Of a stretch of 36,624 bases of DNA, positions 1-36,624 are shown piece by piece. This DNA comes from Myxococcales bacterium (GTDB lineage Bacteria; Myxococcota; Myxococcia; Myxococcales; Myxococcaceae), in the NCBI GenBank assembly GCA_020846875.1, contig JADLDB010000195.1, forward strand, positions 1-36,624. The letters are read 5' to 3'. Within the stretch, counting starts at the first letter, position 1. Each line of letters opens with the position of its first letter. The notes under the pieces are model-generated. The model worked only from the letters and a program-made list of their open reading frames with translations, was not told the origin of the DNA and ran no database searches. Both the position numbers and the translations under genes were made by a program.

Positions 1-88
1 GGTCCGTCACTTCAGCGGACGCGCGGTACACGCGCATCACCAGGTCGTCCACCACCTTCCACGCCGCCACCCGGGAGAGATCGTTCAT
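1..88 (-). CDS. Four-helix-bundle protein, N-terminal fragment (cut by window edge)
   Basis: The reverse strand reads 29 codons from an ATG at 88 and runs off the window. The peptide begins MNDLSRVAAWKVVDD and continues LVMRVYRASAEVTD. This resembles the first helix of the four-helix-bundle family once called S23 ribosomal protein (a W/A-K-x-x-D helix followed by a V-Y-R-x-S/T turn). Proteins of this family have no settled biochemical role and often sit beside surface-polysaccharide genes. It is divergent from the epimerase gene at 205. No clear Shine-Dalgarno precedes the ATG. Only about a quarter of a usual protein of this family (roughly 120 residues) is visible, so the family call is tentative. 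Confidence 0.5.
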   Translation of the reverse strand, partial: MNDLSRVAAWKVVDDLVMRVYRASAEVTD

Positions 89-114
89 GGTGAGCGGTGT
101 AACGCATGGGGCTG

Positions 115-4022: not shown

Positions 4023-4048
4023 GGCCGCACCCTTAGCAGAACCCGGGG

Positions 4049-4669: not shown

Positions 4670-4690
4670 GTTCCGAAGTATACGGAGGGT
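4670..4690. promoter_or_regulatory. 21-bp spacer between divergent pglD and pglC starts, with small dyad
   Basis: This is all the DNA between the two proposed GTG starts. It contains TCCG (4672-4675), seven bases including GTATAC, then CGGA (4683-4686), a short dyad. GGAGGG at 4684-4689 is the only obvious ribosome site for pglC but lies just 1 nt from its GTG. No promoter pair can fit here, so promoters probably lie inside the flanking coding sequence. Confidence 0.35.
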
Positions 4691-5308
4691 GTGACGCGGG
4701 AACAGCAACTGACCATCAAGCGGCTCGTCGACGTCCTCGGAGCGGCGGCCGGCCTCGCGGTGACGGCGCCGGCTCTGGCGGCGGCCGCGGCGGCCATTCG
4801 CGTCACGATGGGGGGGCCTGTGCTGTTCCGACAGCAGCGCCCCGGCCAGGGCGGAAGGCCCTTCCACATCTACAAGTTCCGCACGATGAGCGACGCGCGC
4901 GATGCGCAGGGCCACCTCAAGCCCGACCTCGAGCGCCTCACAGGCGTGGGCCGCTTCATCCGCGCGACGAGCCTGGACGAGCTCCCCCAGCTCCTCAACG
5001 TGCTCAAGGGAGAGATGAGCCTGGTGGGCCCGCGGCCGCTATTGATGCAGTACCTCGGGCGCTACAACACCCGGCAGGCGCGGCGCCACGAGGTGAAGCC
5101 GGGCATCACGGGGCTGGCGCAGGTGCGCGGCCGGAACGCCCTGAGCTGGGAAGAGAAGTTCGAGTTCGACGTGCGCTACGTCGAGCAGTGGTCGCTGGGT
5201 CTCGACGCGCGCATCCTTCTCGAGACGGTGAAGAAGGTGCTCCAGCGCGAAGGCATCTCCCAGCAGGATCACGCGACGATGACCGAGTTCATGGGGACGA
5301 AGGAGTGA
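4691..5308 (+). CDS. pglC: PglC-like phosphoglycosyl transferase (initiating enzyme)
   Basis: A 205-residue monotopic phosphoglycosyl transferase (bacterial sugar transferase family), the minimal PglC size rather than the long multi-TM WbaP type. It has a single hydrophobic re-entrant helix at about 12-38, YKFRTM at 61-66, the catalytic Asp-Glu dyad at D96/E97 in SLDELPQ, and VGPRP at 112-116. It would move phospho-diacetylbacillosamine (or a related UDP-sugar) onto undecaprenyl phosphate at the inner membrane, starting the glycan. GTG 4691 is chosen since homologues begin just before the KR-x-x-D segment. A GTG at 4628 would add a hydrophilic tail overlapping pglD and is less likely. The stop overlaps the next gene (GTGA). 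Confidence 0.88.
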   Translation: MTREQQLTIKRLVDVLGAAAGLAVTAPALAAAAAAIRVTMGGPVLFRQQRPGQGGRPFHIYKFRTMSDARDAQGHLKPDLERLTGVGRFIRATSLDELPQLLNVLKGEMSLVGPRPLLMQYLGRYNTRQARRHEVKPGITGLAQVRGRNALSWEEKFEFDVRYVEQWSLGLDARILLETVKKVLQREGISQQDHATMTEFMGTKE

Positions 5309-6465
5309 GCCGCGTCCCTCGTCGTGTGGTGCACGTGTTGACCGTGGCCGACTCGCTCGTCTTCGTCGACGAGGTCGTGCGGCGCTCGAAGGCGCGGGGC
5401 TTCGAGGTGACGGTGGTGACGTCGCCCGACGAGCGTCTCGCGGCTTTCGGCCGGCGCCAGGGCGTGGCGACAGTCGCGCTCGACATGCCCCGACGGGTGA
5501 CTCCCCTGGGAGACTGGCAGGCCCTCAGGCGGCTGCACGCCCTGCTGCGTAGCCTCCAGCCGGGGGTCGTGCACGCCCACACCCCCAAGGGCGGGCTCTT
5601 GGGGACCCTGGCCGCCGAGGCCGCCGGGGTGCCCGTTCGCCTGTACCACATGCGCGGGCTGCCCTTCGTCACGCTCAAAGGGCCCATGCGTGCCCTGATG
5701 CAGACGACGGAGCGCGTGTCGTGTCGCGCGGCCACGCGCGTGGTCTGCCAGTCGCCCTCGCTGCGCCGCACCGCGCTCGAGCGCCGCCTGGTCGCGCCGG
5801 AGCGCTGCGAGGTGATCCTCAAGGGGAGCAACGGGGTGGACTGCGACGGGCGCTTTCAGCCCGCCCGACAAGCGGAGTCAGGTCGCGCGCTCCGGGCGTC
5901 CCTGGGCATCCCTCCGGATGACCTGGTGGTGGGCTTCGTCGGCCGGTTGGTGCGCGACAAGGGCGTGCCGGAGCTGGTCCTGGCGTTCGAGCGGATCGCG
6001 TCAACCCGACCGAAGGCCTGGCTGCTCCTGGCAGGCCCGTACGAGCCGAGAGATCCGATCGACGCTCAAACGCGTAGACGCATCGAGTCCCACCCACGCA
6101 TCCGGACGCTGGGCTTCGTTTCGGACCCTGGCCCGGTGTACGCGGCCGCGGACGTCGTCGCGCTCCCGAGTCACCGCGAGGGCTTTCCCAATGTGCCGCT
6201 CGAGGCGGCGGCGATGGAACGGCCGGTGCTATCGACCCGGGTGGACGGCTGCACCGACGCGGTCGAGGACGGCGTGACAGGTACGCTGGTCGGCGTCGAG
6301 GACGTGGGCGCGCTCACAGCGGCGCTCGATCTCTACGCGGCCGATCCGGACCTGCGACGTCGGCACGGTCTGGCCGGTCGAGCCCGAGTGGAGGCCGACT
6401 TCCGGCGCGACCGCATCGCGGAGGCGGTGGTGGACCTCTACGAGCGCGAAATGCTGAGGGTCTGA
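5305..6465 (+). CDS. GT4-family glycosyltransferase
   Basis: A 386-residue GT-B enzyme. VVHVLTVADS starts the N-terminal domain, VVHAHTPKGGLLG lies at about 88-100, and FVGRLVRDKG at 211-220 opens the donor domain. The Ex7E motif is E292/E300 in REGFPNVPLE. It resembles the enzymes that add the second sugar to a PglC product (PglA/WbpH-like), which fits its place directly after pglC. The start GTG overlaps the pglC stop by 4 nt; the ribosome site AGGAG touches the start, so initiation may depend on coupling. The donor is unknown; a HexNAc is a guess from context. Confidence 0.86.
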   Translation: MSRVPRRVVHVLTVADSLVFVDEVVRRSKARGFEVTVVTSPDERLAAFGRRQGVATVALDMPRRVTPLGDWQALRRLHALLRSLQPGVVHAHTPKGGLLGTLAAEAAGVPVRLYHMRGLPFVTLKGPMRALMQTTERVSCRAATRVVCQSPSLRRTALERRLVAPERCEVILKGSNGVDCDGRFQPARQAESGRALRASLGIPPDDLVVGFVGRLVRDKGVPELVLAFERIASTRPKAWLLLAGPYEPRDPIDAQTRRRIESHPRIRTLGFVSDPGPVYAAADVVALPSHREGFPNVPLEAAAMERPVLSTRVDGCTDAVEDGVTGTLVGVEDVGALTAALDLYAADPDLRRRHGLAGRARVEADFRRDRIAEAVVDLYEREMLRV

Positions 6466-6468
6466 GAT

Positions 6469-6497
6469 TTGACTCAGGCGGGGCGCGGGGCCTACAC
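6469..6497 (+). promoter_or_regulatory. Candidate sigma-70-type promoter upstream of pglF
   Basis: TTGACT at 6469-6474, a 17-nt spacer, then CTACAC at 6492-6497, about 50 nt before the pglF start. The -35 matches well and the -10 poorly. It overlaps a small inverted repeat (CTGAG at 6462-6466, CTCAG at 6473-6477). This could let pglF be expressed apart from pglC. Weak call. Confidence 0.3.
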
Positions 6498-6545
6498 CGC
6501 GCGCTGAACCCGCGTCGGGCGGGCGGGCACGAAGGAGCCGTGACG

Positions 6546-8438
6546 ATGCAGGAGTCCAGCCAGTGGCTGCTGCGCTACCGCCGCGTGGTGGCGGTGGCCG
6601 TGCACCTGGGGCTCTTCTCGCTGGCGCAGGCCTTCGCCTTCGGCCTGCGCTTCGAGTTCACCATTCCCGACGTCTACTTTCCGGTCTTCTGGGTGTGGCT
6701 CGGGGCCAACCTGCTCACCCGGCTGGTGGTGTTCGGCTACTTCGGCCTCTTCTCCGGGATGTGGCGGTACACCGGGGCGAAGGACCTCGAGGCGCTGCTC
6801 AAGTCGGCAGCGCTCTCAACGCTCGTCTTCGCAGTGTTCATCGTGCTGGGCGGCTACCGGAGCTACCCGCGCTCCATCCTGGTCATCGACTTCCTGCTCA
6901 CGATGATCCTCGTGGGGGGCCTGCGCTTCGGGGTGCGCTCGTTGTGGCAACTCGCGGCAGCGGTCGGTCAGAAGCGGGAGGGTGAGCAGAAGCGGGTGCT
7001 GATCGTCGGCGCGGGCAACGCTGGCGAGATGCTGGTGCGCGAGATGCTGAAGACGCACGGCGGGCGCTACCTCCCGGTGGGCTTCGTCGACGACGACTCC
7101 AACAAGAAGGGTGTGTCGATCCACGGCGTGAAGGTGCTGGGCCGCCTTGCGGAGGTGCCGAAGCTGGTGCAGGCCCAGCGCATCGACGAGGTGGTGATCG
7201 CCATTCCTTCGGCCTCGGGGAACGAGATGCGCCGCATCGTCGATACGGTGAAGGGCGCGGGGGTCTCGATCCGCACCATGCCGGGCATCGACCAGCTCAT
7301 TTCCGGGCAGGTCACCATCAACCAACTGCGCAGCGTGAACATCGAAGACCTGCTGGGGCGGGAGCCGGTGTCGCTCGACATGGAGTCTCTGAAGAGCCTG
7401 CTCGCCTCTCACGTGGTTCTGGTGACGGGAGCGGGCGGGAGCATTGGCTCGGAGTTGTGTCGCCAGGTGGCGCGCTTCGCGCCCAGGCAGTTGGTGCTGG
7501 TCGAGCAGTCCGAGCCGGCGCTGTTCGAAACCCACCGCGAGCTGGTGGCCCACTTCCCCGGCGTGGAGATCGTGCCCTGCATCGCCGACGTCTGTGACGC
7601 GGCCCGGGTGCGCTCGCTGTTCGGGCGCCACCGGCCGACAGTGGTGCTGCACGCTGCGGCGCACAAGCACGTGCCGATGATGGAGTGGAACCCGGGCGAA
7701 GCGCTGAAGAACAACGTCGGGGGAACGAAGGTCGTGGCGGACGCGGCGCACGAGTTCAACGCGCAGCAGTTCGTCATGGTGTCCACCGACAAGGCGGTGA
7801 ACCCGACGTCCATCATGGGGGCGACCAAGCGGGTAGCGGAGCTCTACGTCCAGGCGATGAGCCAGCGCAGCAGGACGCGCTTCGTCGCCGTGCGCTTCGG
7901 CAACGTGCTTGGGTCGGCGGGCAGCGTGATCCCCATCTTCAAGGAGCAGATCGCCGCGGGTGGGCCGGTGACGGTGACCCACCCCGACATGCGGCGGTAC
8001 TTCATGACCATCCCCGAGGCGAGCCAGCTGGTGCTGCAGGCCGCCACCATGGGGCGGGGCGGGGAGATCTTCGTGCTCGACATGGGCGAGCCGGTGAAGA
8101 TCGTCGACCTGGCGCGGGATCTGATCACGCTGTCGGGGCTGACGCCGGACAAGGACATCGAGGTCCGCTTCACGGGCCTCCGCCCCGGCGAGAAGCTGTT
8201 CGAGGAGTTGTCGACGGCCGAGGAGAACGCGGAGAAGACGCGGCACCCGAAGATCTTCATCGGGAAGCTGCCGCCGCGGCCGTTGGAGGAGGTTTCCCGG
8301 CAGGTCGCGGCGCTCTTCGACGGCGCGAACGAGGTCAGCGCGGCGGAGGTCGCTCAGCGCCTGGGAGCCGTCGTGCCTGAGCTGCAGCGAGCGGACGCTC
8401 CGACCGCCCAGATCATCGCCCTGCGCCAGCGGGCGTGA
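6546..8438 (+). CDS. pglF: PglF/WbpM-like UDP-N-acetylglucosamine 4,6-dehydratase (membrane-anchored)
   Basis: A 630-residue protein with four N-terminal membrane segments (within about residues 13-135), a nucleotide-binding domain (VLIVGAGNAGEML, about 151-163) and the C-terminal extended SDR catalytic domain: VTGAGGSIG at 293-301, STDKAVNPTSIMGATKR at about 413-429. As is normal in this subfamily, Met replaces Tyr of the YxxxK motif (M424, K428), and the TDK triad does the dehydration. The reaction converts UDP-GlcNAc to UDP-2-acetamido-2,6-dideoxy-4-hexulose, the PglE substrate. ATG 6546 is chosen because GAAGGAG lies 8 nt upstream; GTG 6540 is too close. The 3' end overlaps the convergent membrane-protein gene by 26 nt. 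Confidence 0.9.
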   Translation: MQESSQWLLRYRRVVAVAVHLGLFSLAQAFAFGLRFEFTIPDVYFPVFWVWLGANLLTRLVVFGYFGLFSGMWRYTGAKDLEALLKSAALSTLVFAVFIVLGGYRSYPRSILVIDFLLTMILVGGLRFGVRSLWQLAAAVGQKREGEQKRVLIVGAGNAGEMLVREMLKTHGGRYLPVGFVDDDSNKKGVSIHGVKVLGRLAEVPKLVQAQRIDEVVIAIPSASGNEMRRIVDTVKGAGVSIRTMPGIDQLISGQVTINQLRSVNIEDLLGREPVSLDMESLKSLLASHVVLVTGAGGSIGSELCRQVARFAPRQLVLVEQSEPALFETHRELVAHFPGVEIVPCIADVCDAARVRSLFGRHRPTVVLHAAAHKHVPMMEWNPGEALKNNVGGTKVVADAAHEFNAQQFVMVSTDKAVNPTSIMGATKRVAELYVQAMSQRSRTRFVAVRFGNVLGSAGSVIPIFKEQIAAGGPVTVTHPDMRRYFMTIPEASQLVLQAATMGRGGEIFVLDMGEPVKIVDLARDLITLSGLTPDKDIEVRFTGLRPGEKLFEELSTAEENAEKTRHPKIFIGKLPPRPLEEVSRQVAALFDGANEVSAAEVAQRLGAVVPELQRADAPTAQIIALRQRA

Positions 8439-9744
8439 GGGTCGTCTGCCCGGTCACCGGAGCCGGTTGGGGCACCTCCCTGAGGACGAGCAGCAGAGTG
8501 AAGAAGAAGGGCATCATGGGGGCACGGTAACGCGAGAGGGTGCCGATGTTAGAGCTCGCCAGCCCGGTGCCGAGGGCCAGCGCGAAGGCGAAGGTGAAGC
8601 AGAACAGCATGGCTGGAGAGCCCCTGATGGCGCCGATCAGCCCAGACCACGTGCGCCGTCGGAGGACCTGCACGAACAGCACCAGGAGCACGGTCGCCTC
8701 GAGCGCGTTGACGAACTGCACGGCATTCCTCGCTTCGAAGATGAATGGCCGAAAGAAGGCCGTGAGGAGTGCGACGGGGGCCAGGGCGAGCTCCTGGCTG
8801 AGCGAGCGTTGCTCGACGTCTTCGACGGGGGCGGGCGCGTCGAGCTGGTAGTTCGATCCGCCTTCGATCTGGTAGCCCACGCGCCGCTGCGAGGCGAGCG
8901 ACGAGGCGGCGTTCGAGCTCTCCGCCTTGCCGAAGTAGCGTGACCCGAGCACTAGCCCCCCTGCACCGATGGCCAGGGCCATGATCACCGCGAACGGCTT
9001 CAGCGCGTCCTCACTCACTCTGAAGCGCGTCCAGAGGTAGAAGATCGCTGCGGAAATTGAGAGCGTCATGAGCACGTAGGGCTTGAGCATCGCCATCAAA
9101 GTGGCGCCTGGGATGACGAGGAGCACGGCCAGCGCCCGATGTTTGCCCAGGGAGAGCCACTTCAGGCCGAGCATGAGTGGGCCGAGCGCAGCCATGATCA
9201 GCGGCTCCTTCAGGACGGCGCTCGACCAGAAGACCGCGCTCGGCAGGAGGGTGGCGCCGATGAGGACCAGGCGCTGGCGATCTCTGGGAAAGTACTCGCG
9301 GAGCGCCCAGGCGATCATCAACTGCGAGACGTAGGTCACGATGCCGAGGAGGACTGATGCGGCATACAGCGAGTTGCCGACGAGGAAGAGAAGGAAGGCG
9401 GTCGCCGCCGACATCGATTGAGTGGACCCTCCGCCGGCGAGGTTGGCGGGCAGAAAGAACTCGTCACTCTGGAAGAAGGCCTTCACCAGCTCCGGTGCGA
9501 ATTTGGGGAAATCGGCGCGCAGCAGTTCGGCCAGCGGGACTCCGAACTCGTAGTAGGCGAGCATGTCTCCCCCGCCCTTGAAGTAGTACTTTACGAGCAG
9601 CACCTGGACGATCCCGCTTACGACATGGCCCGCAAAGCTCAGGGTGATCAGAGGTGCTTCACTGGGCGGGTGGCGGCGCAGGACGAGTGCGTGAATCCCG
9701 ATGCCGACGGCCAGCACAATCGGTGTGAAGATGAAGTCTTCCAT
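8413..9744 (-). CDS. Polytopic membrane protein, candidate Wzy-type polymerase
   Basis: A 443-residue protein with roughly ten hydrophobic segments. YYFKGGGDMLAYYEFG near residues 52-67 sits in a periplasmic-type loop like the GDxxxYY region of EpsG/Wzy-like and GT-C proteins. SRYRAPMMPFFFTLLL near the C-terminus resembles the R-Y-R-x-P-x-x-P ending of such proteins. A long soluble stretch falls at about 275-325. I cannot name a family with certainty; polymerisation of lipid-linked repeats is inferred from context. It stands alone on its strand: its start codon overlaps the start of the divergent gene at 9743, and its 3' end overlaps pglF by 26 nt. Confidence 0.68.
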   Translation of the reverse strand: MEDFIFTPIVLAVGIGIHALVLRRHPPSEAPLITLSFAGHVVSGIVQVLLVKYYFKGGGDMLAYYEFGVPLAELLRADFPKFAPELVKAFFQSDEFFLPANLAGGGSTQSMSAATAFLLFLVGNSLYAASVLLGIVTYVSQLMIAWALREYFPRDRQRLVLIGATLLPSAVFWSSAVLKEPLIMAALGPLMLGLKWLSLGKHRALAVLLVIPGATLMAMLKPYVLMTLSISAAIFYLWTRFRVSEDALKPFAVIMALAIGAGGLVLGSRYFGKAESSNAASSLASQRRVGYQIEGGSNYQLDAPAPVEDVEQRSLSQELALAPVALLTAFFRPFIFEARNAVQFVNALEATVLLVLFVQVLRRRTWSGLIGAIRGSPAMLFCFTFAFALALGTGLASSNIGTLSRYRAPMMPFFFTLLLVLREVPQPAPVTGQTTLTPAGAGR

Positions 9745-10771
9745 GGGTCTCGGCGCTGAGTCTCCTGGGGACTCTCCCCTATTCGAAGTGCTGGCGGGAG
9801 CGCCAGTGCCGCATGGCCCCGGTCCGTCCCTCGCGGCCGCGGCGGCACGCCACGGACTCAGCGCGCTGGTCGCCGACCACCTGGCGGGCACTGGTCGGCT
9901 GGTGCCCGAGGCCCTCGCTCGTGACGCGCGCGCGCAGATTGCCTATGGCCTGAAGACCAAGCGCCTGACGTTGCAGGTGGTTGATGCGCTGGCGGCGGAG
10001 GGGATCACGCCGATTCTGCTCAAGGGGTACGCCTTGGCCCTGCGGCTGTACCCGGATCAGCCGCTCGCACGACCGGCCAGCGACGTGGACGTGCTCGTGG
10101 CCGAGGGCGAGTTGGAGCGGGTGGGTCGGGCGCTGGGTCGGATCGGCTTCGTGCGCCACGAGGACGCGGCATTGGCCGACGTGTTCGAGGATCACCATCA
10201 CCTGTCCTTTGCCGGACCAGGGGGGCTCGTCGAAGTGCACTTTCGCCTCATCGCTACGCTGGGGCGGGCCTGCTTCGACGACGTGTCGCTGCGCGCGCGC
10301 GCTCGGGAGTGGACGGTCGACGGCCGAAGGGTCCGGCTGCTCGACCAAGAGGACGAGTTTCTGTACCTCGCCACCCACGCGGCCAACCACGCCTTCCTCC
10401 GAATCTCGTGGCTGGTGGATCTGCAGCGCTACCTCGCTCGCGCGGGCGGGTTTGACTGGGCCCGCATGGCAACCCGGGGCCGGAAGGCTGGCTTCCACAC
10501 CGCCGTCACCACCGCACTCGAACTCGTACAGCGCCTGCTGCATGTCTCGTTGCCGGCCGAGGCTCGGCGGAATTTCCCCCACTCTCGAGTGCGGCAGAAG
10601 GTCGACCGGCGCCTGTTCTCAAGCGCGCTCGTGGAGTCGGCAGCTGTGTCCAACCACCGGGTCGGCGCCTTTCTCGTGCGTCTATGGCTCGTCGACTCCC
10701 CCTCACATGGAGTACGACACTTGTTCGACGGAGCGCGCCGGTTCCTTCGCCGGGCTCGCGCGGAGGGGTGA
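9743..10771 (+). CDS. Nucleotidyltransferase-fold protein (PF14907-like)
   Basis: A 342-residue protein resembling the 'uncharacterised nucleotidyltransferase' family. LLKGYALALRLYP (about 92-104) is followed by PASDVDVLV (111-119), whose D114/D116 correspond to the metal-binding Asp pair of the polymerase-beta fold. A later HAANHAFLR.SWLVDLQRYL region is also typical. Members occur in surface-polysaccharide and natural-product clusters, but their substrate is not established. ATG 9743 is taken as start; the ribosome site is poor and other in-frame starts upstream (9725, 9731) would lie inside the divergent gene. The stop is directly followed by the GTG of the ligase gene, so the two are coupled. 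Confidence 0.72.
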   Translation: MGLGAESPGDSPLFEVLAGAPVPHGPGPSLAAAAARHGLSALVADHLAGTGRLVPEALARDARAQIAYGLKTKRLTLQVVDALAAEGITPILLKGYALALRLYPDQPLARPASDVDVLVAEGELERVGRALGRIGFVRHEDAALADVFEDHHHLSFAGPGGLVEVHFRLIATLGRACFDDVSLRARAREWTVDGRRVRLLDQEDEFLYLATHAANHAFLRISWLVDLQRYLARAGGFDWARMATRGRKAGFHTAVTTALELVQRLLHVSLPAEARRNFPHSRVRQKVDRRLFSSALVESAAVSNHRVGAFLVRLWLVDSPSHGVRHLFDGARRFLRRARAEG

Positions 10772-13240
10772 GTGCCAGCTTCCGACCACAGCCGCTGGTG
10801 GCTGGCCGCCGAGGCCGTGCTCATGCTCGCGCTTGTAGCCCTGCCTTGGTCGCTGGGGGGAGCGCCCACCTGGACCCTCTGGCTCGTCGTCGGTTTCGGG
10901 GCGACGTCTCTGTTGTTCTGGGTCGTCGGTGCTTCGCGGAATCATCGCCGCTGGGGCCCGAACCTGTTGATGACGCTGCCCGTCGCGATCGTAGCGGTGG
11001 CCTTGCTCCAGCTGGTTCCGCTGCCGCCCGCGATGCTATCGGCGCTCTCGGGACCGGGAGGCGAGCTCCGCGACTTCGCCCTGGTGCCCCTCGGGCTTGA
11101 TCGCTGGCGGCCGGTGAGCCTCGATGCTCCGTCGACGGCCCGGGCGCTCGCGCGTGCGATCGGCCTGGGGTCGATGGTCCTCGTGGCGCTGGAGCTGGGC
11201 CGGCAGGCTCACGTGCGGCGGAGGTTGCTCGCCGTCCTCGCGCTCTCGGGCGTTTCGGTCGCGGTCTGCGGCTGTGGACACCTCCTGGCGAACGCGGAGT
11301 CGCTCTTCGGGGTCCACCACTTTCAGACCGCCGTTCAGATCATCACGCCCTTCGGCAACGGAAACCACCTGGCGGCGTGGCTGACCCTGACGGGAACGGT
11401 GGCCCTGGGCCTCGCCCTCGACGCGAAGACCCGCGACGCGGCCATCGGGTGGGGGGCGGCCGCGTTTACCAGTGGGGTGGTCGTGTTCCTGTCCTACTCC
11501 CGTGGCGGCATTGGGACCTTCGTCGCGACGTGGGGGCTGGTCGGCGCCGCGGTGTTGGCGCGGAAGGGCGGAGGGATCCGCTCGGTGCTCCCTTGGGTGG
11601 CCATCGCCGCCACCGTCGTCTTCGCCGGCCTCCTCTCGTTCGAGCAGTTGCTGGCCCGCGCGGACACACTGAGCAGCGTCGAGAAGCTGCGAGCCACCAA
11701 GGTGGAGTTCTGGCCGATGTTCGCCCGCGCTGCGATCGCGTTCTGGCCCGCAGGCTTGGGGCTGGGGGCCTACGAGCTGGGGTTCGTCCAATACCAAGAC
11801 CAGCAGCTGAGCGTCACCTTCACGCACCCCGAGAACCTGCCGCTCCAGTGGGCCACTGAGGTGGGGTTGCCCCTGACCCTGGCGATGGCGGCGGTCGTCT
11901 GCGTGCTGTTCGTGCGGGTCCGGCGCCGGACCTGGGACCTGCCGCTCGAGCGGACGGCAACGATCGCCGTCGCGGGCGTCCTGCTCCACGATCTCTTCGA
12001 CTTTTCTTGCGAGCTGAACGCCGTCTCCGTCGGGGTCGCAGTCGTTGCCGGCCTGGTGTGCGCGGTGGGGCGTGAGGCCAGCGGGCGAGTCGCGGTTCGA
12101 CGCGTCGGGCCTGCCGCGGCGGTGGCGGTGAGCACGGTTGCCCTGCTGGCAGCCTGGCGCGGAGTTCCCAGCCACGTGGCCCGGGAGCAGACCCTCGCCG
12201 AGGCGATTTCGTCCGCGCAGCCCCTGGAGTCAGTGCGCGCGATCGCGATCTCGGCGATCGACCGGCACCCGGCCGACTGGGTGCTGTACGCGAACATGGC
12301 CGCCGATCTCGCCCGTCGGGGGCAACCGCGGGAGGCGTTGGCCTGGGTGAACCGGCAGCTCTTCCTGCGCCCCGCCGATCCCGGTGCCCACGTTGCGGCC
12401 GCACACGCCTTGCTGCGCCTGGGCAAGCCGCTGCAGGCGCTCATCGAGCTGAAGTCGGCGTGGAGGCTGGGAGACACCGCGTCGTTGGAGCTGGGGGCCG
12501 TCATCGCAGCGCGAGAGAACGCGTTCGATCGCATCCTGCTGGAAACGGAAGGGCACCTCACGGCCCTGTACCGGGCCCTCCGCACGGCGGGCCGCGTGGA
12601 GGACGTGATGCGGCTCCTCGACGCCGCAGCCCAGGCCAGCCTGGGGGAGAGGATCGACGCGGAGCTGCGCGTGCTGCGCGTATTGCACGCCGCGGAGCTG
12701 GGCGATCCGGAGGTCGCGTTGGCCAGGTGGGCCGAGCTGCCCGGTCCAGAACGGCAGAAGCCCGGCCTAGTGATGGTGAAGGTCCAGGCGCTGGGAAAGC
12801 TGGGCCGGCAAGACGAGGCCGTGGCGGAGTTGGAGCGCCTGTGCAACCGCGATCCCACCAACAGCGAGGCGGCCTTCGCGCTGGCGGTGGCGCTGGGGGG
12901 GCAACGCAGGCTGACCGAAGCCCGGCAGGTCCTTGGGCGGATTCGCTCGATGGCCGCGAGCCAGTCAGTCCGGGTACGGTCCTTCGAGCTCGAGGCGCGC
13001 ACCTGGGTGCTCGAGGAGCGGTGGCCACGCGCGCTCGAGGCCTGGCAGACGGCAGCGCGCATCGAACCCGCCCGCGCCGACCTCCACTATCGGCTAGCGG
13101 AGGTGTACGAGCGCATGGGGAGCCTCCACGCAGCCCTGGACGAGGTCCGTCGAGGGCGCCTGTTGGACTCGGCCGAAGGGGCAAAGGCCCAGGATCCCTG
13201 GGTAGAGCGGTTGACGCGGGCGCAGGCGGTGCCACCCTGA
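10772..13240 (+). CDS. O-antigen ligase/polymerase (Wzy_C superfamily) with C-terminal TPR domain
   Basis: An 822-residue inner-membrane protein. About 11-13 hydrophobic segments fill residues 1-470. The SYSRGG motif near residue 241 and the periplasmic stretch with GLGLGAYE and FTHPENLPLQWATEVG are marks of the Wzy_C (O-antigen ligase) superfamily. From about 490 to the end are alpha-helical TPR-like repeats (HPADWVLYANMAADLARRGQ and later copies), expected in the periplasm. It may ligate or polymerise the glycan. Because the cluster starts with a bacillosamine route, a protein O-oligosaccharyltransferase role (PglL-type, same superfamily) is also possible. GTG 10772 has GGAGGGG about 5 nt upstream and abuts the previous stop. 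Confidence 0.85.
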   Translation: MPASDHSRWWLAAEAVLMLALVALPWSLGGAPTWTLWLVVGFGATSLLFWVVGASRNHRRWGPNLLMTLPVAIVAVALLQLVPLPPAMLSALSGPGGELRDFALVPLGLDRWRPVSLDAPSTARALARAIGLGSMVLVALELGRQAHVRRRLLAVLALSGVSVAVCGCGHLLANAESLFGVHHFQTAVQIITPFGNGNHLAAWLTLTGTVALGLALDAKTRDAAIGWGAAAFTSGVVVFLSYSRGGIGTFVATWGLVGAAVLARKGGGIRSVLPWVAIAATVVFAGLLSFEQLLARADTLSSVEKLRATKVEFWPMFARAAIAFWPAGLGLGAYELGFVQYQDQQLSVTFTHPENLPLQWATEVGLPLTLAMAAVVCVLFVRVRRRTWDLPLERTATIAVAGVLLHDLFDFSCELNAVSVGVAVVAGLVCAVGREASGRVAVRRVGPAAAVAVSTVALLAAWRGVPSHVAREQTLAEAISSAQPLESVRAIAISAIDRHPADWVLYANMAADLARRGQPREALAWVNRQLFLRPADPGAHVAAAHALLRLGKPLQALIELKSAWRLGDTASLELGAVIAARENAFDRILLETEGHLTALYRALRTAGRVEDVMRLLDAAAQASLGERIDAELRVLRVLHAAELGDPEVALARWAELPGPERQKPGLVMVKVQALGKLGRQDEAVAELERLCNRDPTNSEAAFALAVALGGQRRLTEARQVLGRIRSMAASQSVRVRSFELEARTWVLEERWPRALEAWQTAARIEPARADLHYRLAEVYERMGSLHAALDEVRRGRLLDSAEGAKAQDPWVERLTRAQAVPP

Positions 13241-13298
13241 AGAACCCTGTGGCAAGGGGGTGGAGAGTTTGAACTTGGTCGCCGGGGGGTGGTACTGA
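13232..13298 (+). promoter_or_regulatory. Weak hairpin and candidate promoter ahead of the Wzc-like gene
   Basis: CCACCC (13232-13237) can pair with GGGTGG (13258-13263), with an inner CCCT/AGGG pairing, but no T-run follows. Just downstream TTGAAC (13269-13274), 18 nt, TACTGA (13293-13298) is a possible promoter. Either could separate expression of the kinase from the ligase gene. Both are weak. Confidence 0.25.
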
Positions 13299-13331
13299 GT
13301 CGAATCAGGCGGTTTCATCCAGGACGGGATC

Positions 13332-15503
13332 GTGTCGGCCAGTCCCCCCCAGACAGATGTTTTTGGTCGCGGCGGCGCCGACGCTCGGTTCTACCTGCGC
13401 GTCGTCCTTCGGCGGAAGTGGCTCATCCTGCTCACCTTCGCAGTCGTCGTCGGCGCGACGACGTTGTACACCACCCGCCAGCCGAGGGTGTACGCGGCGC
13501 AGATCTCCCTCATCATCGATCCCAAGGAACCCCGCTTCCTGGACAGCCAGATCCAGGACGTGAACAGCGACACCGGCTCGTACTACTGGGCGAACAAGGA
13601 GTACCTGGAGACCCAGTTCAAGATCATCCAGAGCCGGGCGGTGTCGCAGCGCGTGGTCGAGAAGCTGGGGCTGAACGCCGACCCCGACTTCCTGGGGCTC
13701 TCAAAGCTGTCGGACGAGAAGCGCCGCCAGGAGTTGATGCCGAGGATGGATGCGGTGGCGCGGCTGCAGGCCATGATCAAGGTCGAGCCCGTGAAGGACT
13801 CGCGGGTTTCCCTGATCAAGATCGAAGACTCCGAGCCCACCCGTGCCGCCCTGCTCGCCAACGAAGTTGCCCAGGCGTACATGGACGAACTGCTGGCGCA
13901 GAAGCTCAAGCTCACCGAGAACGCGTCGAAGTGGCTCGACGAGCAACGGGGCAGCTTGTCGGAGTCGGCCACCTCAAGTGAGCTCGCGCTGTACACCTTC
14001 CGTAAGCAGGCCGACATCCTCGCGATCGACGACCGCGCCAGTATGGTGTCGCAGAAGCTGCAGGAGACAAGCAAGGCGCTGACTGACGTGCAACTGAAGA
14101 TCGCGGGCCTTAAGGCGCGCGTCGCCGCGATCCGCAACGTGCAGCAGACTCACGGCGCCGAAGACCGCCTCTGGGCCGAGGCGTTGCCCGCGGCGCGCGA
14201 GAACGAGAACCTGAAGAAGCTGAAGGACCGCCTGCACGCGCTGAAGAACGAGTGCACCGATCTGCAGTCGCGCTACCTCGAGGGCCACCCGAAGCTGATC
14301 GAGTGCCGCGAGAAGCTGGCGGTGGCCGAGCGGGACGTCGAGCGGGACCTGTCGAACCTGGTGCTCTCCACCGAGGCCGAGTTGAGGGAGGCCGTCGAGA
14401 AGGAGCGAAACCTGAAGGACCTGTTTGAGGGCGCTAAGGCCGAGGCCTTCGATCTCGAGAAGAAGAAGGTCGAACTCGACAAGTTCAAGCAGGACGCGGA
14501 CAACGCCAAGCGCCAGTACGAGTCGGTCTACAAGCGCCTGAAGGACATCGAGCTGTCGGGCGCGCTGCGCACCTCGAACGTGAAGGTGCTCGACGCGGCG
14601 CGGCCGTCGATGGCGCCGATTCGGCCGAACGTGCCCCAGGGCGTGTTGATGGGGGTGATCGCCGGCCTCATCCTGGGCTTGGGAATCGCGCTGCTGCTCG
14701 AGTTCCTCGACTCCTCGGTGTCGTCTCAGTCGGAGGTGGAAGAGCGCCTGGGGCTTACCTTCCTGGGGTTCGTGCCGACGATCCCCGAGAACCCGAACGG
14801 GCCCAAGGACCTGCACGTCTTCCGGGAACCCAAGTCACTCATCGCCGAGTGCACGCGCGCGGTCCGCACCAACCTGCTGTTCATGTCACCGGACAAGCCT
14901 TTCAAGCGCATGCTGGTGACGTCCAGTGGTCCCCAGGAAGGCAAGTCAACCACCGTGATCAACTTGGGCATCACGATGGCCCAGAGCGGCAACCGGGTGT
15001 TGATCATTGACACCGACATGCGTCGCCCGCGGCTCCACCGCGCGTTCGGTGTTCCGAACGACGTGGGCGTGTCTTCGGTGGTGGTGGGAGAGGGCCAGGC
15101 GGAGGACGCGGTCAAGTCCACCGAGGTGCCCGGCCTGTTCGTGTTGCCCTGTGGCCCGGTGCCGCCGAACCCCGCCGAGTTGTTGCACACCAAGGCCTTC
15201 GCCGACCTGCTGAACCATCTGGGTGAGAAGTTCGATCGCATCCTCCTCGACAGCCCGCCGGTGGGCGCGGTGGCCGACGCGGTGGTGTTGGCAACCCAGG
15301 CCGACGGCGTGGTGGTGGTGCTGAAGGCTGGCCAGACGCACCGCGAGGTTGCTCAGCGGACGGTGAAGGCCCTGCGCGATGTGAAGGCCAACATCTACGG
15401 CGCGGTGCTGAACGACGTGAACCTCGAGAAGTCGAAGTACGGCGACTACTACTACGGGTACACGTACCGGTATTACGGCGAGGGCGAGAAGAAGGAGGCC
15501 TGA
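13332..15503 (+). CDS. wzc: Wzc-like polysaccharide co-polymerase with BY-kinase domain
   Basis: A 723-residue fusion of a Wzz/PCP-2a chain-length regulator and a bacterial tyrosine kinase. TM1 lies at about 29-48, followed by a Wzz domain, a long charged coiled-coil periplasmic part (about 190-410) and TM2 near 436-460 preceded by a proline-rich stretch. The kinase has Walker A SSGPQEGKST (about 531-540), Walker A' VLIIDTDMRRPR (about 556-567) and Walker B ILLDSPP (about 637-643). The C-terminal tail carries eight tyrosines in 13 residues (KYGDYYYGYTYRYY), the autophosphorylation cluster. It would set chain length and drive export with a Wza partner not present here. GTG 13332 has AGGA 7 nt upstream. 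The 3' end overlaps the convergent asnB-like gene by 31 nt. Confidence 0.93.
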   Translation: MSASPPQTDVFGRGGADARFYLRVVLRRKWLILLTFAVVVGATTLYTTRQPRVYAAQISLIIDPKEPRFLDSQIQDVNSDTGSYYWANKEYLETQFKIIQSRAVSQRVVEKLGLNADPDFLGLSKLSDEKRRQELMPRMDAVARLQAMIKVEPVKDSRVSLIKIEDSEPTRAALLANEVAQAYMDELLAQKLKLTENASKWLDEQRGSLSESATSSELALYTFRKQADILAIDDRASMVSQKLQETSKALTDVQLKIAGLKARVAAIRNVQQTHGAEDRLWAEALPAARENENLKKLKDRLHALKNECTDLQSRYLEGHPKLIECREKLAVAERDVERDLSNLVLSTEAELREAVEKERNLKDLFEGAKAEAFDLEKKKVELDKFKQDADNAKRQYESVYKRLKDIELSGALRTSNVKVLDAARPSMAPIRPNVPQGVLMGVIAGLILGLGIALLLEFLDSSVSSQSEVEERLGLTFLGFVPTIPENPNGPKDLHVFREPKSLIAECTRAVRTNLLFMSPDKPFKRMLVTSSGPQEGKSTTVINLGITMAQSGNRVLIIDTDMRRPRLHRAFGVPNDVGVSSVVVGEGQAEDAVKSTEVPGLFVLPCGPVPPNPAELLHTKAFADLLNHLGEKFDRILLDSPPVGAVADAVVLATQADGVVVVLKAGQTHREVAQRTVKALRDVKANIYGAVLNDVNLEKSKYGDYYYGYTYRYYGEGEKKEA

Positions 15504-17440
15504 CTTTCTCCAACCTGCGCCTGCGCTTCACTCCACGCTTGGAACATCAGTATGTCCCACAGGTGGTACTCCCACGGGCGCTGGCCGTGGAGAAGTTCGT
15601 CCCAGCGCGCACGGATGAGCGGCACGTTGAACCCGTGCTCTCGCAGGCGGGAAGGGGCCAGCAGCCCCTCGGCCCAGTCCCGTAGCGGCCCCCGGAGCCA
15701 TGCCCCAAGGGGGATTCCGAAGCCCATCTTCGAGGAAGAGAGGATCTCGGGCGGAACGTAGCGGGCCAGCACCTGCCGGAGAATCCACTTGCCGGTGCCC
15801 CCCCGTATGCGGAGGTGGCTGGGCAGCCGCCACGCGAACGCGAACAGGCGGTGGTCGAGGAGGGGCTCCCGGGCCTCCAAGCTCACGGCCATCGTGGCGC
15901 GGTCGACTTTGGTGAGAATGTCGTCCGGAAGGTACTGGATGGTGTCGCGGATCATCATCTCTTCGGCGACTCCTGCGCCGCCGCCCCGCACCAGCGGCTC
16001 GATCGGCAACCCCATGGGGAGAGGCTGATCGCTCAGCGCGTGCTCGCTGGGCAGCCAATGGCTGGAGAGGATCGCGTGCATCGCCTCGGGGCTGTCCGCG
16101 CTCAGGACTGACGCGGCCTTGTGAAGGCGGATTCCGGGTAGCCGGGGGGCAGGCATCACCCCGCCCAGCTTCTCAAAGAGCGCGTCCCAGGCCCCGGGGG
16201 AGCGTGCAGTGATGAGGCTCGACAGCGCGCGTCGCGCCGGGCCAGGGAGGAGACGTTCTGCCTGCCACAGGCGCGGCCCCCACTGGTGTCGCATGTAGCC
16301 GCCGAAGTACTCGTCTCCCCCGTCCCCCGAGAGTACAACCGTGACGTCGCGACGGGCCAACTGCGCCACGAGGAAGGTGGGAATCTGGGACGAGTCCGCA
16401 AACGGCTCGTCGTACATCATGGGGAGCCGGGGAATGACGTCCAGCGCGTCTCGCGCGGTGATCTTGAGGGACGTGTGGTGGGTGTTGAGGTGACGGGCGA
16501 CGGCCCGCGCCGCGGTCCCTTCGTCGAAGTCCGCGGTCTCGTTCTCGATGGAGAAGGTGTGGACGGGGATCTCGCTCTGCACCTGCATCAACGCGACCAC
16601 CGTCGAGGAGTCAATTCCGCCCGAGAGGAAGGCGCCGAGCGGAACGTCAGACACTAGGCGCAGCTTCACGGCGTCGCGAAGCAGCGAGTCAAGCTGTTCG
16701 ATAGCCTCGCGTTCGGTGCCCTGGAACGGCTCGGCGAGGCTGGCTCGGGCAACTCCGACGGCGTCCCAGTAGCGCGTGGTCGTGGGGGCGGCGGTGGGAG
16801 CTGAAAAGGTGAGGAAGGTCCCTGGTAGGACCCGGCGCGTCTCCTCGAAGATCGAGGCCTCGCCCGGAACGCAGTTGGCACGGAGGAAACCGGCGAGGGC
16901 GACGCGATTGATGCGGGTGACGAAGCCGGGGAGTCGCCGGAGCGCCTTGAGCTCGGAGCCGAAGCCGAGGCCTCGCTCCACCTTCGACCAGTAGAGCGGC
17001 TTGATGCCGACGCGGTCCCTGACCAGGTGCAGCCGCTGCTCTTGGCCGTCCCAGAGCGCGAAGGCGAACATCCCGATGAAGCGCCCCACCGCTGGTTCTA
17101 GGCCCCAGGCCTCGATGGCTGCGAGCATCACTTCGGTGTCCGAGCTGCCCCGCCAGGGTGGCGCCTTGCCTGCTCGCTCGAGCTCCTTCCTCAGGGCCGC
17201 GAAGTTGAACACCTCGCCGTTGAAGGTGATCACGTACCGGCCGGAGGCCGACGTCATTGGTTGGTGCCCGGCCGGCGAGAGGTCGATGATCGAGAGCCGC
17301 CGGTGTGCCAGCACGGGCCCGTTCACCCCACACCGCAGCACGCCGGAGTCGTCAGGGCCGCGGTGGGCGAGGGCCTGCGCCATCACTTGCGCAGAGGCCT
17401 CCTCTAGCCCAGGGGCCCAGAAGCCCGTGACGCCGCACAT
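15473..17440 (-). CDS. AsnB-like glutamine amidotransferase (first copy)
   Basis: A 655-residue glutamine-hydrolysing asparagine-synthase family protein. MCGV gives the N-terminal nucleophile Cys2 after Met removal, and HRGPDDSG, LAHRRLSIIDLS and FNGEVFNF form the glutaminase site. The synthase domain has the ATP PP-loop LSGGIDSS (about 270-277) and SGDGGDEYFGGY. In polysaccharide clusters such proteins are usually thought to amidate a uronic acid carboxylate, or another acid, rather than make asparagine. It is alone on its strand between the wzc and wbpB genes, and its last 31 nt overlap wzc. ATG 17440 is fixed by the obligatory Cys2, though no strong ribosome site is seen. Confidence 0.87.
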   Translation of the reverse strand: MCGVTGFWAPGLEEASAQVMAQALAHRGPDDSGVLRCGVNGPVLAHRRLSIIDLSPAGHQPMTSASGRYVITFNGEVFNFAALRKELERAGKAPPWRGSSDTEVMLAAIEAWGLEPAVGRFIGMFAFALWDGQEQRLHLVRDRVGIKPLYWSKVERGLGFGSELKALRRLPGFVTRINRVALAGFLRANCVPGEASIFEETRRVLPGTFLTFSAPTAAPTTTRYWDAVGVARASLAEPFQGTEREAIEQLDSLLRDAVKLRLVSDVPLGAFLSGGIDSSTVVALMQVQSEIPVHTFSIENETADFDEGTAARAVARHLNTHHTSLKITARDALDVIPRLPMMYDEPFADSSQIPTFLVAQLARRDVTVVLSGDGGDEYFGGYMRHQWGPRLWQAERLLPGPARRALSSLITARSPGAWDALFEKLGGVMPAPRLPGIRLHKAASVLSADSPEAMHAILSSHWLPSEHALSDQPLPMGLPIEPLVRGGGAGVAEEMMIRDTIQYLPDDILTKVDRATMAVSLEAREPLLDHRLFAFAWRLPSHLRIRGGTGKWILRQVLARYVPPEILSSSKMGFGIPLGAWLRGPLRDWAEGLLAPSRLREHGFNVPLIRARWDELLHGQRPWEYHLWDILMFQAWSEAQAQVGESQASFFSPSP

Positions 17441-21956: not shown

Positions 21957-21976
21957 ACCGGGCGTGGCGTTGACGG

Positions 21977-22741: not shown

Positions 22742-22747
22742 CGCCCG

Positions 22748-33648: not shown

Positions 33649-35012
33649 TTCACTGGGTTTCCCGGGGCGCGTCGCGCGAGTTCTGGCGGAACCTGCTCGC
33701 TCAACACGGCGCGGCGATCGTCAGTCTGGGCGCCGGCTTCGTTCAGTCCTTCGTCGTGGCGCGCGCGCTGGGCCCGGCGGCCGTCGGGCTGATGGCGGCG
33801 TGCTCCGCGGTGGCTGCGATCGTCTTTCAGTTCGTCGAACTCCGCCTCCATGAGGCGGTGATCAAGTACTCGATGGAGTACGCCGCGGAGAAGAACGCGC
33901 GCGCGTGCCACGGCGTCGCGCGCGTCTCGCTGCTGCTGGACGCGGGGACCGGCGTGCTGGCCACGCTCGTGTCGCTCGCCGCCGGGTGGGTGGTGCAGGA
34001 GCGGATCGTGGCGAGCGAGCCATCGATGGCGGACCTCTACTGGCCCATTTTCCTCCTCTCGGCCGCCACCACGGCCTTTGGCCGCGTGGGCATGGCGACC
34101 GCCCTCGGGCTGATGCGCGTCTACGACGGGTTTCGGCTGCACGCGCTCGTCGTGGCAGTGAGCGCGATCCTCCGTCTTTCCGCCATGTGGGCAGCGCTGG
34201 TGCTCGGGTTCGGGATCATGGGGGTGTCCATCGCCGGGGCCGTGGTGGCGCTCGGAACGACGGCCGTGTTGGTGCCGCTCTCGTTCCGCCGGCTCGAGCG
34301 GCGCTTCCCGGGCGAGAGAGGCGGGTGGGAGGAGCTCCGCCCGCGGGCGCGGGAGATGAGGAGGTTCGTGCGTTCGACGTACCTCATCTCGGTCACCCAG
34401 ATCCCCACCAAGGAGCTGGACGTGGCGCTCCTCCCTCAGCTCACGTCGCTGGAAGTGGTCGGCGCCTACAAGATTGCCAAGAACTTCATGGCTGCGGTGT
34501 GGGTGCTCGCCGATCCCCTCTTCAACACAGTGTACCCGGAGTTCACGCGGATGCTCGCCGAGAAACGACCTGCCTCGGCCCGGCGTTTTGCGCTGCGGCT
34601 GACGGCGGTCTTCGGCGTGGTGGGGCTGACGGGCAGCTTATTCGCGGCGCTGGTCGTACCGCCGCTGATCCACGGCGTGCTGGGCGATCGCTTCGCCGTG
34701 GCCACACCGCTGTTCCTGCTAATGCTCCTCGGCGCGGCGCCCTGGCTGGCGGCTTTCTGGGCGCACCCGTTCATCATCGCGGCGGGCCGGCCGGATCTCT
34801 CCCTTCGAGCCATGCTGGTCTCATCGGCGTTCATGTTCGTGGGGCTCCTCGTTGCGACGCCGCTCTGGGGAGGCATGGGGGCTGCGGCCGTGTCGGGGCT
34901 GAGCAGCTTCGCGGGGGTGGCAACGGTCCTCTTGTTCGCGCGCACCTCGGGGGTCTTCCCCCGCGCGGACGCGGTGGATGCCCCGCAGCCTGAAGCAGAG
35001 GCCACGGCATGA
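33645..35012 (+). CDS. wzx: Wzx-type lipid-linked oligosaccharide flippase
   Basis: A 455-residue membrane protein with about 12 hydrophobic segments and the layout of the polysaccharide biosynthesis/MATE-like flippase family. It has GAGFVQSFVVARALGPAAVG near the start, a central charged cytoplasmic loop (ERRFPGERGGWEELRPRARE, about 223-242), then TYLISVTQIPTKELDVALLP and AYKIAKNFM. It would turn undecaprenyl-diphosphate-linked repeats across the inner membrane for polymerisation. It is coupled by ATGA overlaps to the glycosyltransferase before and the oxidoreductase after. It is the only flippase in the window, which supports a Wzx/Wzy pathway over an ABC-exporter pathway. Confidence 0.87.
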   Translation: MIHWVSRGASREFWRNLLAQHGAAIVSLGAGFVQSFVVARALGPAAVGLMAACSAVAAIVFQFVELRLHEAVIKYSMEYAAEKNARACHGVARVSLLLDAGTGVLATLVSLAAGWVVQERIVASEPSMADLYWPIFLLSAATTAFGRVGMATALGLMRVYDGFRLHALVVAVSAILRLSAMWAALVLGFGIMGVSIAGAVVALGTTAVLVPLSFRRLERRFPGERGGWEELRPRAREMRRFVRSTYLISVTQIPTKELDVALLPQLTSLEVVGAYKIAKNFMAAVWVLADPLFNTVYPEFTRMLAEKRPASARRFALRLTAVFGVVGLTGSLFAALVVPPLIHGVLGDRFAVATPLFLLMLLGAAPWLAAFWAHPFIIAAGRPDLSLRAMLVSSAFMFVGLLVATPLWGGMGAAAVSGLSSFAGVATVLLFARTSGVFPRADAVDAPQPEAEATA

Positions 35013-36136
35013 GCACCGAGCTCGACACGGACGTCGCCGTCATCGGCGCGGGGGTGATCGGGCTGGCTGTCGCCGAGCGCCTGTCGCGCCCGGGACGAGC
35101 GGTGGTGGTGGTCGAGAAGAACCCGACCCCGGGTATGGAGACGACCTCTCGCAACTCCCAGGTCGTCCATGCGGGCATGTACTACCCGACCGGAACGCTG
35201 AAGGCGGCGCTCTGCGTTCGGGGCAACGCCTCCTTGCTCGAGTGGTGCCGCGCGCACGCAGTTCCCCACGCCCTCGTCGGAAAGCTGATCGTCGCCACCT
35301 CCGCCGACGAGGAGCCGGAGTTGGACGCGATCTTCGAGCGGGGCAGGGCGAATGGGGTGGGGCACCTCGAGCGGGTCGACGTCCGGTTTGTGCGTGGGAA
35401 GGAGCCTGAGGTGGCTGCGACCGCGGCCCTGTGGAGCCCCCACACGGGCGTCATAGACGCCCAGGCCTTCGTCGGCTCGCTGCTCGAGCAGGGCAGGGCG
35501 CAGGGGGTGGTGCTGGCGCTGCGGCACCGGCTCCAGGCGGCAGCTACCAGAAGCGATGGCTTCGGGCTCGAAGTGCTGGGCCCGGAGGGAGATCGAATCT
35601 CCATTCGCGCCCGGCGGGTGGTGAACGCTGCGGGACTGCATGCGGACACGGTGGCCGCACTCCCGGGGATCGACGTCGACACCGCGGGCTATCGCCAGCA
35701 CTTCGTGAAGGGGCACTACTTCCGGGTGCGGGCGCGGGGGCGCGTGCGACATCTCGTCTACCCCGTGCCCGTGAAGGACCTCGCGGGGCTCGGAGTCCAC
35801 GTGACGGTCGGACTGGACGGCGACGTGCGCCTCGGCCCCGACGTGAAGTTCCTGGACGGGCGTCAGGAGGACTACGACGTCCCCGAGGAGCTCGCGGAGA
35901 GCTTCTGGCGCGGCGCTTCCCGCTACCTGCCCTGGCTTCGTCCCGAACTCTTGGCGCCCGACCAGGCGGGCATTCGGCCTAAGCTGTCGTCGCGCGGTGG
36001 CGGCTTCCGCGACTTCGTGATCGCCGAGGAGTCTTCTCGAGGGCTCTCTGGGTGGATCAACCTGCTGGGGATTGAGTCTCCCGGCTTGACCTGTGCCCTG
36101 GAGATTGCTGCCGAGGTCGAGCGGCTCTTGGCCTGA
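35009..36136 (+). CDS. FAD-dependent oxidoreductase (LhgO/DAO family)
   Basis: A 375-residue flavoprotein. VAVIGAGVIGLAVAERL (about 9-25) binds the FAD ADP part. TTSRNSQVVHAGMYYPTG (about 45-62) and LKAALCVRGN are the pattern of L-2-hydroxyglutarate oxidase-like enzymes, and LLGIESPGLTCALEIA near the end completes the FAD site. The known E. coli family member oxidises 2-hydroxyglutarate, but relatives occur inside glycan clusters with unknown substrates. Co-translation with the flippase (4-nt overlap) suggests a role tied to the glycan. One possibility is removal of 2-hydroxyglutarate formed as a side product of the WbpB 2-oxoglutarate recycling step; this is speculation. Confidence 0.83.
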   Translation: MSTELDTDVAVIGAGVIGLAVAERLSRPGRAVVVVEKNPTPGMETTSRNSQVVHAGMYYPTGTLKAALCVRGNASLLEWCRAHAVPHALVGKLIVATSADEEPELDAIFERGRANGVGHLERVDVRFVRGKEPEVAATAALWSPHTGVIDAQAFVGSLLEQGRAQGVVLALRHRLQAAATRSDGFGLEVLGPEGDRISIRARRVVNAAGLHADTVAALPGIDVDTAGYRQHFVKGHYFRVRARGRVRHLVYPVPVKDLAGLGVHVTVGLDGDVRLGPDVKFLDGRQEDYDVPEELAESFWRGASRYLPWLRPELLAPDQAGIRPKLSSRGGGFRDFVIAEESSRGLSGWINLLGIESPGLTCALEIAAEVERLLA

Positions 36137-36139
36137 ACC

Positions 36140-36381
36140 TCAACTCTCCGCCGGTCGCTCGTTCGGTGCCCGTCGTTCGAGCGTGAAGTACTTCTTGAGC
36201 TCGAGGAAGCGCGTCTCGAAGTACCGGAAGGACAGCGCCGCAACGGTGAAGGCCCCAGCGACGCCCGTGGCGATCGCCAGCAGGTAGCGAGGCTCCGGGC
36301 GGCGCTGAGCTTGTGAACGACGGCTCGCAGACCGTCCAGCGCGGGAACGTGGTTCTTCACGGCTGGCGGCTTGGACGACAT
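36140..36381 (-). pseudogene. Acyltransferase-3 (OafA-like) gene with large internal deletion
   Basis: Reading leftward from ATG 36381, MSSKPPAVKNHVPALDGLRA is the classic N-terminus of an acyltransferase-3 membrane protein (the x-P-x-LDGLR motif). After about 22 codons the match ends. From about 36300 in another frame comes ATGVAGAFTVAALSFRYFE, then TRFLELKKYFTLERR and a stop at 36140: the last membrane helix and basic tail of the same family. A full gene is about 1.1 kb, so roughly 0.9 kb of the middle is missing and the joined ends are out of frame. Family members O-acetylate surface glycans; this one should be dead. An assembly error is less likely but possible. Confidence 0.72.
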
Positions 36382-36511
36382 GGCGGGCGCGGTTTAGGTC
36401 AATCCCGTCGGTCTGTCGCCCGTTTGGGAGGTTCCATTCAGGGCAGGAGCTACGGGCCGCTGTCGGTGCTTCAAAATCCGTCCGTGCTATGGCCATTCAG
36501 GAAGGGGACGC
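36382..36511. other. Intergenic region with a 9-bp direct repeat
   Basis: CCATTCAGG occurs at 36434-36442 and again at 36493-36501, 59 bp apart, the second copy next to the ribosome site (GAAGGGG) of the last gene. A TGCTATGG extended -10-like string lies at about 36485-36492 without a matching -35. No terminator was seen. Confidence 0.3.
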
Positions 36512-36624
36512 ATGCACGCCATGAACAAAGAGCCCTTCCGCCCCGGCCCCGCCACCCTCACCACCGCCGCGCTGCTGGTGATCGTCTTCGTCCTCGAGGT
36601 CGCCCTCTCCGGCGACGAAGTCAC
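36512..36624 (+). CDS. Membrane protein, N-terminal fragment (cut by window edge)
   Basis: An open frame of 37 full codons from ATG 36512, preceded by GAAGGGG. The peptide starts MHAMNKEPFRPGP and then has a hydrophobic helix TLTTAALLVIVFVLEVALSG before running off the window. Helix placement and the Gly-Asp after it resemble the first helix of rhomboid-family proteases, but this is too little to assign. A second ATG at 36521 is less well spaced. It marks the right-hand border of the glycan cluster if it is a housekeeping gene. Confidence 0.5.
   Translation, partial: MHAMNKEPFRPGPATLTTAALLVIVFVLEVALSGDEV

Follow-up and report, generated by a model that had tools for sequence, protein, structure and literature searches.

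A probable acyltransferase-3 gene remnant at the edge of a variable polysaccharide locus in a Myxococcales bacterium

The right edge of a polysaccharide locus in a Myxococcales bacterium carries what is very likely a dead, non-functional remnant of an acyltransferase-3 (AT3, PF01757) gene, left by an internal deletion of about 0.9-1 kb. The window analyzed here, the whole stretch of 36,624 nucleotides, is a complete contig (C195) of a 7.06-Mb, 200-contig assembly. Genes were called with our own codon-usage script, and 29 of the 30 genes called in C195 were scanned with Pfam. The features discussed below are listed in Table 1; C196 and C42 are two other contigs of the same assembly that share end sequences with the window.

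Table 1. Features of the window and their relationship to contigs C196 and C42
Feature	Coordinates	Strand	Evidence or remark
Left end, identical in C196	1..127		DNA comparison
Glycan-locus core	2892..17386		Nine called genes with C196 homologues, 69-93% protein identity
Glycan genes without a close C196 counterpart	17564..35012		Gene calls and family matches; weak paralogues (30-35%) only
LhgO-like FAD-dependent oxidoreductase (DAO fold)	35009..36136	+	Convergent with the remnant
AT3 remnant, last transmembrane helix and basic tail with its own stop codon	36140..36298	-	Homology
Junction zone	36299..36318	-	Frame shifts by 2 (mod 3); fixing the exact breakpoint requires the parent gene
AT3 remnant, N-terminal piece	36319..36381	-	Sequence (MSSKPPAVKNHVPALDGLRAV); LDG[LV]R in 28/28 AT3s
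Region upstream of the AT3 remnant	36382..36467		In C195, absent from C196
Right flank common to C195 and C196	36468..36624		157 bp, 1 mismatch; final 127 bp without mismatch in C196 and at the end of C42
Rhomboid and Sel1-repeat protein gene, start	36512..36624	+	630 aa, complete on C42 to the right

An earlier sequence-only reading described the LDGLR N-terminus and the terminal helix with basic tail of an AT3 protein on the - strand, in different frames and about 20 bp apart, and this arrangement is confirmed by the sequence and by the homology to AT3 genes. The N-terminal piece starts with the - strand ATG at 36381, reads MSSKPPAVKNHVPALDGLRAV and ends just past LDGLR. The C-terminal piece of 52 aa is read from 36298 in another frame, offset by 2 (mod 3) (36298-36143, PEPRYLLAIATGVAGAFTVAALSFRYFETRFLELKKYFTLERRAPNERPAES), and consists of a hydrophobic helix, SFRYFETRFLELKKYF, and a basic tail; its stop codon (TGA, 36142-36140) lies 3 bp from the stop of the convergent LhgO-like gene. 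The GC content at the three codon positions fits two coding pieces in two frames: the values are 0.71/0.48/0.81 for the N-terminal piece and 0.65/0.50/0.85 for the C-terminal piece, next to 0.74/0.48/0.86 for the neighboring LhgO-like gene, whereas the N-terminal frame extended beyond the junction yields 0.53/0.80/0.67, unlike the LhgO-like gene.

The assignment to the AT3 family rests primarily on the C-terminal piece. Searching 96 genomes from the family with it, at a cut-off of E <= 0.1 in each genome, returned 33 non-self matches, the best with an E-value of 1.1e-5. Apart from the source genome itself, no member of its genus was among the 96. The loci of 29 of these were fetched (the other 4 are outside the counts), and in 28 of the 29, the exception being L065, an AT3 ORF covers the match; Pfam identifies all 28 ORFs as PF01757, and the piece aligns near their C-terminal ends, 9-33 residues short of the terminus. 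At E <= 0.001, matches were also detected in five genomes beyond its own among 195 genomes of the phylum, with 51-55% identity for the best. A profile built from 37 AT3-like ORFs gives the piece 33.1 bits, while none of 5000 shuffles exceeds 8.8 bits, and in a six-frame search of C195, C196 and 19.8 kb of C42, the C-terminal ORF is the sole match above the inclusion threshold (E 7e-9); the score, the shuffle margin and the E-value are partly circular because 28 of the profile sequences were retrieved with the C-terminal piece itself. The N-terminal site was scored with 28 AT3s (15 distinct sites among them) picked solely via the C-terminal piece and ranks 4 of 148520 16-mers, a good but not unique position that, taken alone, counts against a deleted AT3 gene. 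The same applies to the failure of two other searches: hmmscan of both short pieces against Pfam gave no family at E <= 1, and the remnant was not found with a profile of 9 other ORFs from PF01757 loci, which represent other subfamilies and some of which were probably mis-picked. By descent, the surviving pieces belong with PF01757, being homologous to AT3 genes.

The lack of a Pfam match would also be expected if the resemblance were due to chance or if the region encoded a functional small protein, a reading that we consider highly improbable. A chance match was rejected in view of the matches in the family genomes, where all but one of the fetched homologous loci are AT3 genes, along with the uniform Pfam assignment of these genes, the rank of the N-terminal site and the shuffle control. 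A functional short ORF was rejected given the frame break and the loss of the coding signal past the junction.

In the 28 intact relatives, the stretch that begins 2 residues after LDG[LV]R and runs up to where the C-terminal piece aligns gives an estimate of 285-334 residues (median 295) for the missing segment, which supports the earlier claim that most of the gene was deleted; of the full PF01757 domain (326 profile positions), about 21 + 52 residues are left. The available portions of the literature describe the AT3 domain as comprising 10 transmembrane helices (PMC9833829) and the R-x10-H motif as conserved and essential in AT3s (PMC7448272; PMC9833829). This motif, in the first helix, is present in all 28 intact relatives; in the remnant, the R is kept and the His at that spacing is gone. 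With this His, the catalytic core and nearly all of the membrane domain missing, the product cannot be an AT3 enzyme. Intact AT3 proteins acylate carbohydrates with a group, usually acetyl, that they pass through the membrane, and the position of the remnant suggests that the lost enzyme acylated the glycan made by this locus. Accordingly, of the lost O-acetylation step postulated in the sequence-only reading, the loss of an acyltransferase stands, and O-acetylation of this particular glycan goes no further than an inference; a recent date for the loss is no more than a possibility.

We propose that the right edge of the polysaccharide locus once carried an AT3 gene on the - strand, convergent with the LhgO-like gene and beside the rhomboid-Sel1 gene, and that an internal deletion of some 0.9-1 kb, as judged from the anatomy of the intact relatives, would have taken nearly all of the membrane domain. 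Such a deletion would have joined the codons just past LDGLR to the last helix in the other frame, the join itself being directly apparent. The parent gene was not found intact, so the deletion is deduced rather than seen, and the two ends could in principle derive from two different AT3 genes.

Alternatively, the gene could be intact in the cell, the assembler having dropped its middle or joined the alleles of two strains at the edge of the locus. At 243 bp from the remnant, the contig stops at a branching node with two alternative arms, and the region is therefore hard to assemble. We nevertheless regard an assembly error as improbable. No AT3 match in the assembly corresponds to the missing middle, since the 7.06 Mb contain a single PF01757 match, a full gene on contig C68; no further copy of the 331-bp stretch that bears the remnant was seen among the best 40 of 218 candidates scored in the whole assembly; and the 127-bp overlaps between contig ends (120 bp at another fork) suggest a long k-mer, so that reads probably spanned the junction.

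The sequence-only reading pointed to the interval between the LhgO-like and membrane-protein genes of related genomes as the place to look for an intact counterpart; none was found in the loci examined. At least one PF01757 match is present in 95 of the 96 family genomes, and the relatives' loci were scanned by tblastn with the 37 AT3-like ORFs. No intact AT3 gene was detected near the LhgO-like gene in 18 loci of LhgO relatives (as much as 6 kb per flank, several truncated at contig ends), around LhgO in G006, G016, G020, G026 and G048 (20 kb in G016 and no more than about 1.5 kb per flank in the other four) or next to the two rhomboid-Sel1 genes closest to that of the window (20 kb surrounding the G018 gene and the 3.2-kb G116 contig). 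The two neighbors, LhgO-like and rhomboid-Sel1, were seen together only in C195 and C196 and in no locus of a relative that we examined; because of this, and because several of the loci are short, the negative result is a weak one. Within the assembly itself, the 16 kb around the AT3 gene on C68 yielded no DNA match to C195 or C196.

The locus that the remnant adjoins has, as judged by family matches, the composition of a Wzx/Wzy-type polysaccharide locus: an initiating sugar transferase (PF02397), a flippase (PF01943, E 1.3e-7), a polymerase (PF04932), a Wzc-type kinase (NCBIfam eps_fam) and several glycosyltransferases. The nine core genes encode an aminotransferase, the initiating sugar transferase, a glycosyltransferase, Polysacc_synt_2, Wzy_C-like, Wzc-like kinase and asparagine-synthase-like proteins and two others. 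The genes to the right of the core encode Gfo/Idh proteins, hexapeptide transferases, DegT aminotransferases, methyltransferases, glycosyltransferases and the Polysacc_synt flippase-like protein, together with a HisH-like, AglZ-HisF2 and WbuX set of acetamidino modification genes (20296-23953) that scores above the NCBIfam cut-offs and therefore indicates an acetamidino sugar. The LhgO-like protein encoded next to the remnant matches the DAO fold (PF01266) and, at 231.9 bits, falls below the NCBIfam equivalog cut-off of 299 bits (NF008726) for L-2-hydroxyglutarate oxidase LhgO.

Two further observations were made around the edges of the locus. On contig C26 (28542-28971), an 85-91% copy of the left edge of the window (1-114) is joined to part of the epimerase gene (253-579), the intervening 138 bp being absent; this is perhaps a second truncated glycan gene. 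On C42 (L029:17254-17917), two small overlapping ORFs adjoin the rhomboid-Sel1 gene and may form a pair resembling toxin-antitoxin systems of the VapBC type.

The assembly contains a second contig, C196 (36090 bp), whose two ends each coincide with those of C195 for exactly 127 bp, and C42 terminates in the same right-hand 127 bp. The two contigs are colinear from 2.9 to 17.4 kb at 74-79% DNA identity, save for one extra gene in C196, and their right halves are mostly unrelated apart from weak paralogy and the LhgO-like gene. Pfam analysis, which covered 19 of the 27 called C196 genes (the other 8 comprise 7 genes of the core plus the gene at C196 18970-20208), identified members of the FdtA, MopE-type, GNAT, FkbM and UDP-glucose dehydrogenase families in the right half of C196, and no counterpart of the HisH, AglZ-HisF2 and WbuX genes was found among the 27 called genes (blastp, E 1e-20). 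One C196 gene (L027:16947-18851, - strand) encodes a predicted protein of 634 aa with MopE-type Cu-binding motifs (PF11617). The AT3 remnant is absent from C196: the 331 bp bearing it are specific to C195, and in C196 the shared right flank starts immediately past the LhgO-like stop codon. Given the identity of the contig ends, C195 and C196 are probably two alternative versions (alleles) of one locus in a mixed sample. The strain-level glycan variation proposed in the sequence-only reading is thus plausible. The grounds for it are contig C196, in which both ends are the same but the remnant is absent, rather than an intact AT3 allele.

It is somewhat doubtful, however, whether C195 and C196 might instead be two loci on one chromosome that are joined to the same repeats, an alternative that concerns C196 rather than the remnant. 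The contigs agree at both ends, their cores are colinear and similar in length, and the right-hand node, where the rhomboid gene begins, turned up only in C42, C195 and C196 (best 40 of 218 candidates), all of which argues for alleles. On the side of two loci, C26 carries a 91% copy of the left end, none of the best 40 of 285 candidates was a contig that leads into this shared end, and the contamination estimate for the assembly is just 0.55%. We further looked at the starts of other contigs: no fork was seen at C42 (best 40 of 815 candidates) or at C160 (best 40 of 943), but C68 starts at a fork in a repeat, where two other contigs share its first 120 bp, showing that forks in this assembly can be repeat-driven and weakening the two-strain reading.

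The LhgO-like proteins of C195 and C196 share only 53% identity, and the C195 protein is closer to those of L068 (64%) and G016 (61%), which suggests a different ancestry of the two right ends. The same comparison, along with the confinement of the remnant to the C195-specific stretch next to the shared flank, bears on another origin of the remnant, namely a scar of locus exchange, in which an AT3 gene at a cassette boundary lost its middle, or two AT3 ends were joined, during cassette replacement. We consider this unlikely: both ends are AT3-like and lie in the right order and orientation, a plain internal deletion needs fewer steps, and no parent sequence was found. Starting again from the two contigs as alleles, we tentatively put forward, as a broader possibility that we hold with less than even confidence, that two strains of one species carry different glycan cassettes between the same flanks, in a serotype-like swap, with the AT3 remnant as a footprint of exchange at the cassette boundary and with acyl decorations that come and go at the edge of the locus.

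Taken alone, the remnant is one more decayed gene, a commonplace case of decay where a variable glycan locus ends, and more is to be learned from C196. Should the two contigs be alleles of strains that occur together, they capture the replacement of a glycan locus within a natural population, with a dead acyltransferase at the boundary and acetamidino-sugar genes in one version that lack a counterpart in the other. According to the available part of the literature, acylation of surface glycans can change phage susceptibility, so that losses of acyltransferases may be selected.

The closest known parallels come from the surface glycans of other bacteria, and the literature searched offers general precedents for the position of AT3 genes and for the decay of remnants, with none of the titles listed on this particular case. 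The stand-alone O-antigen acyltransferases Oac and WbaK (PF01757) share with the remnant LDGLR at the start of the first helix, a final helix and a basic tail, a likeness of family features rather than of aligned sequences; unlike these proteins, the remnant lacks the core and the His of R-x10-H and is not an enzyme. In the WcjE capsule acetylation protein, reduced function in clinical isolates of Streptococcus pneumoniae is recorded in the accessible text of one report (PMC7448272), likewise a natural impairment of a surface-glycan acyltransferase, but there a single natural point change with known chemistry is involved, compared to a large deletion with unknown chemistry here. The wzy remnants in the O-antigen loci of Salmonella groups B1 and D1, as far as the consulted portion of PMC3715488 describes them, are also non-functional remnants in a polysaccharide locus that vary between forms of the locus; in that case, the gene is a polymerase and an intact form is known, whereas here the gene is an acyltransferase and none was found. 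The AT3 gene wbaK is described as lying at the end of an O-antigen cluster, as the remnant does in its glycan cluster, and, according to PMC3715488, is missing from some isolates. With the position of wbaK and the wzy remnants on record, both the position and the decay of the AT3 remnant are of a known kind.
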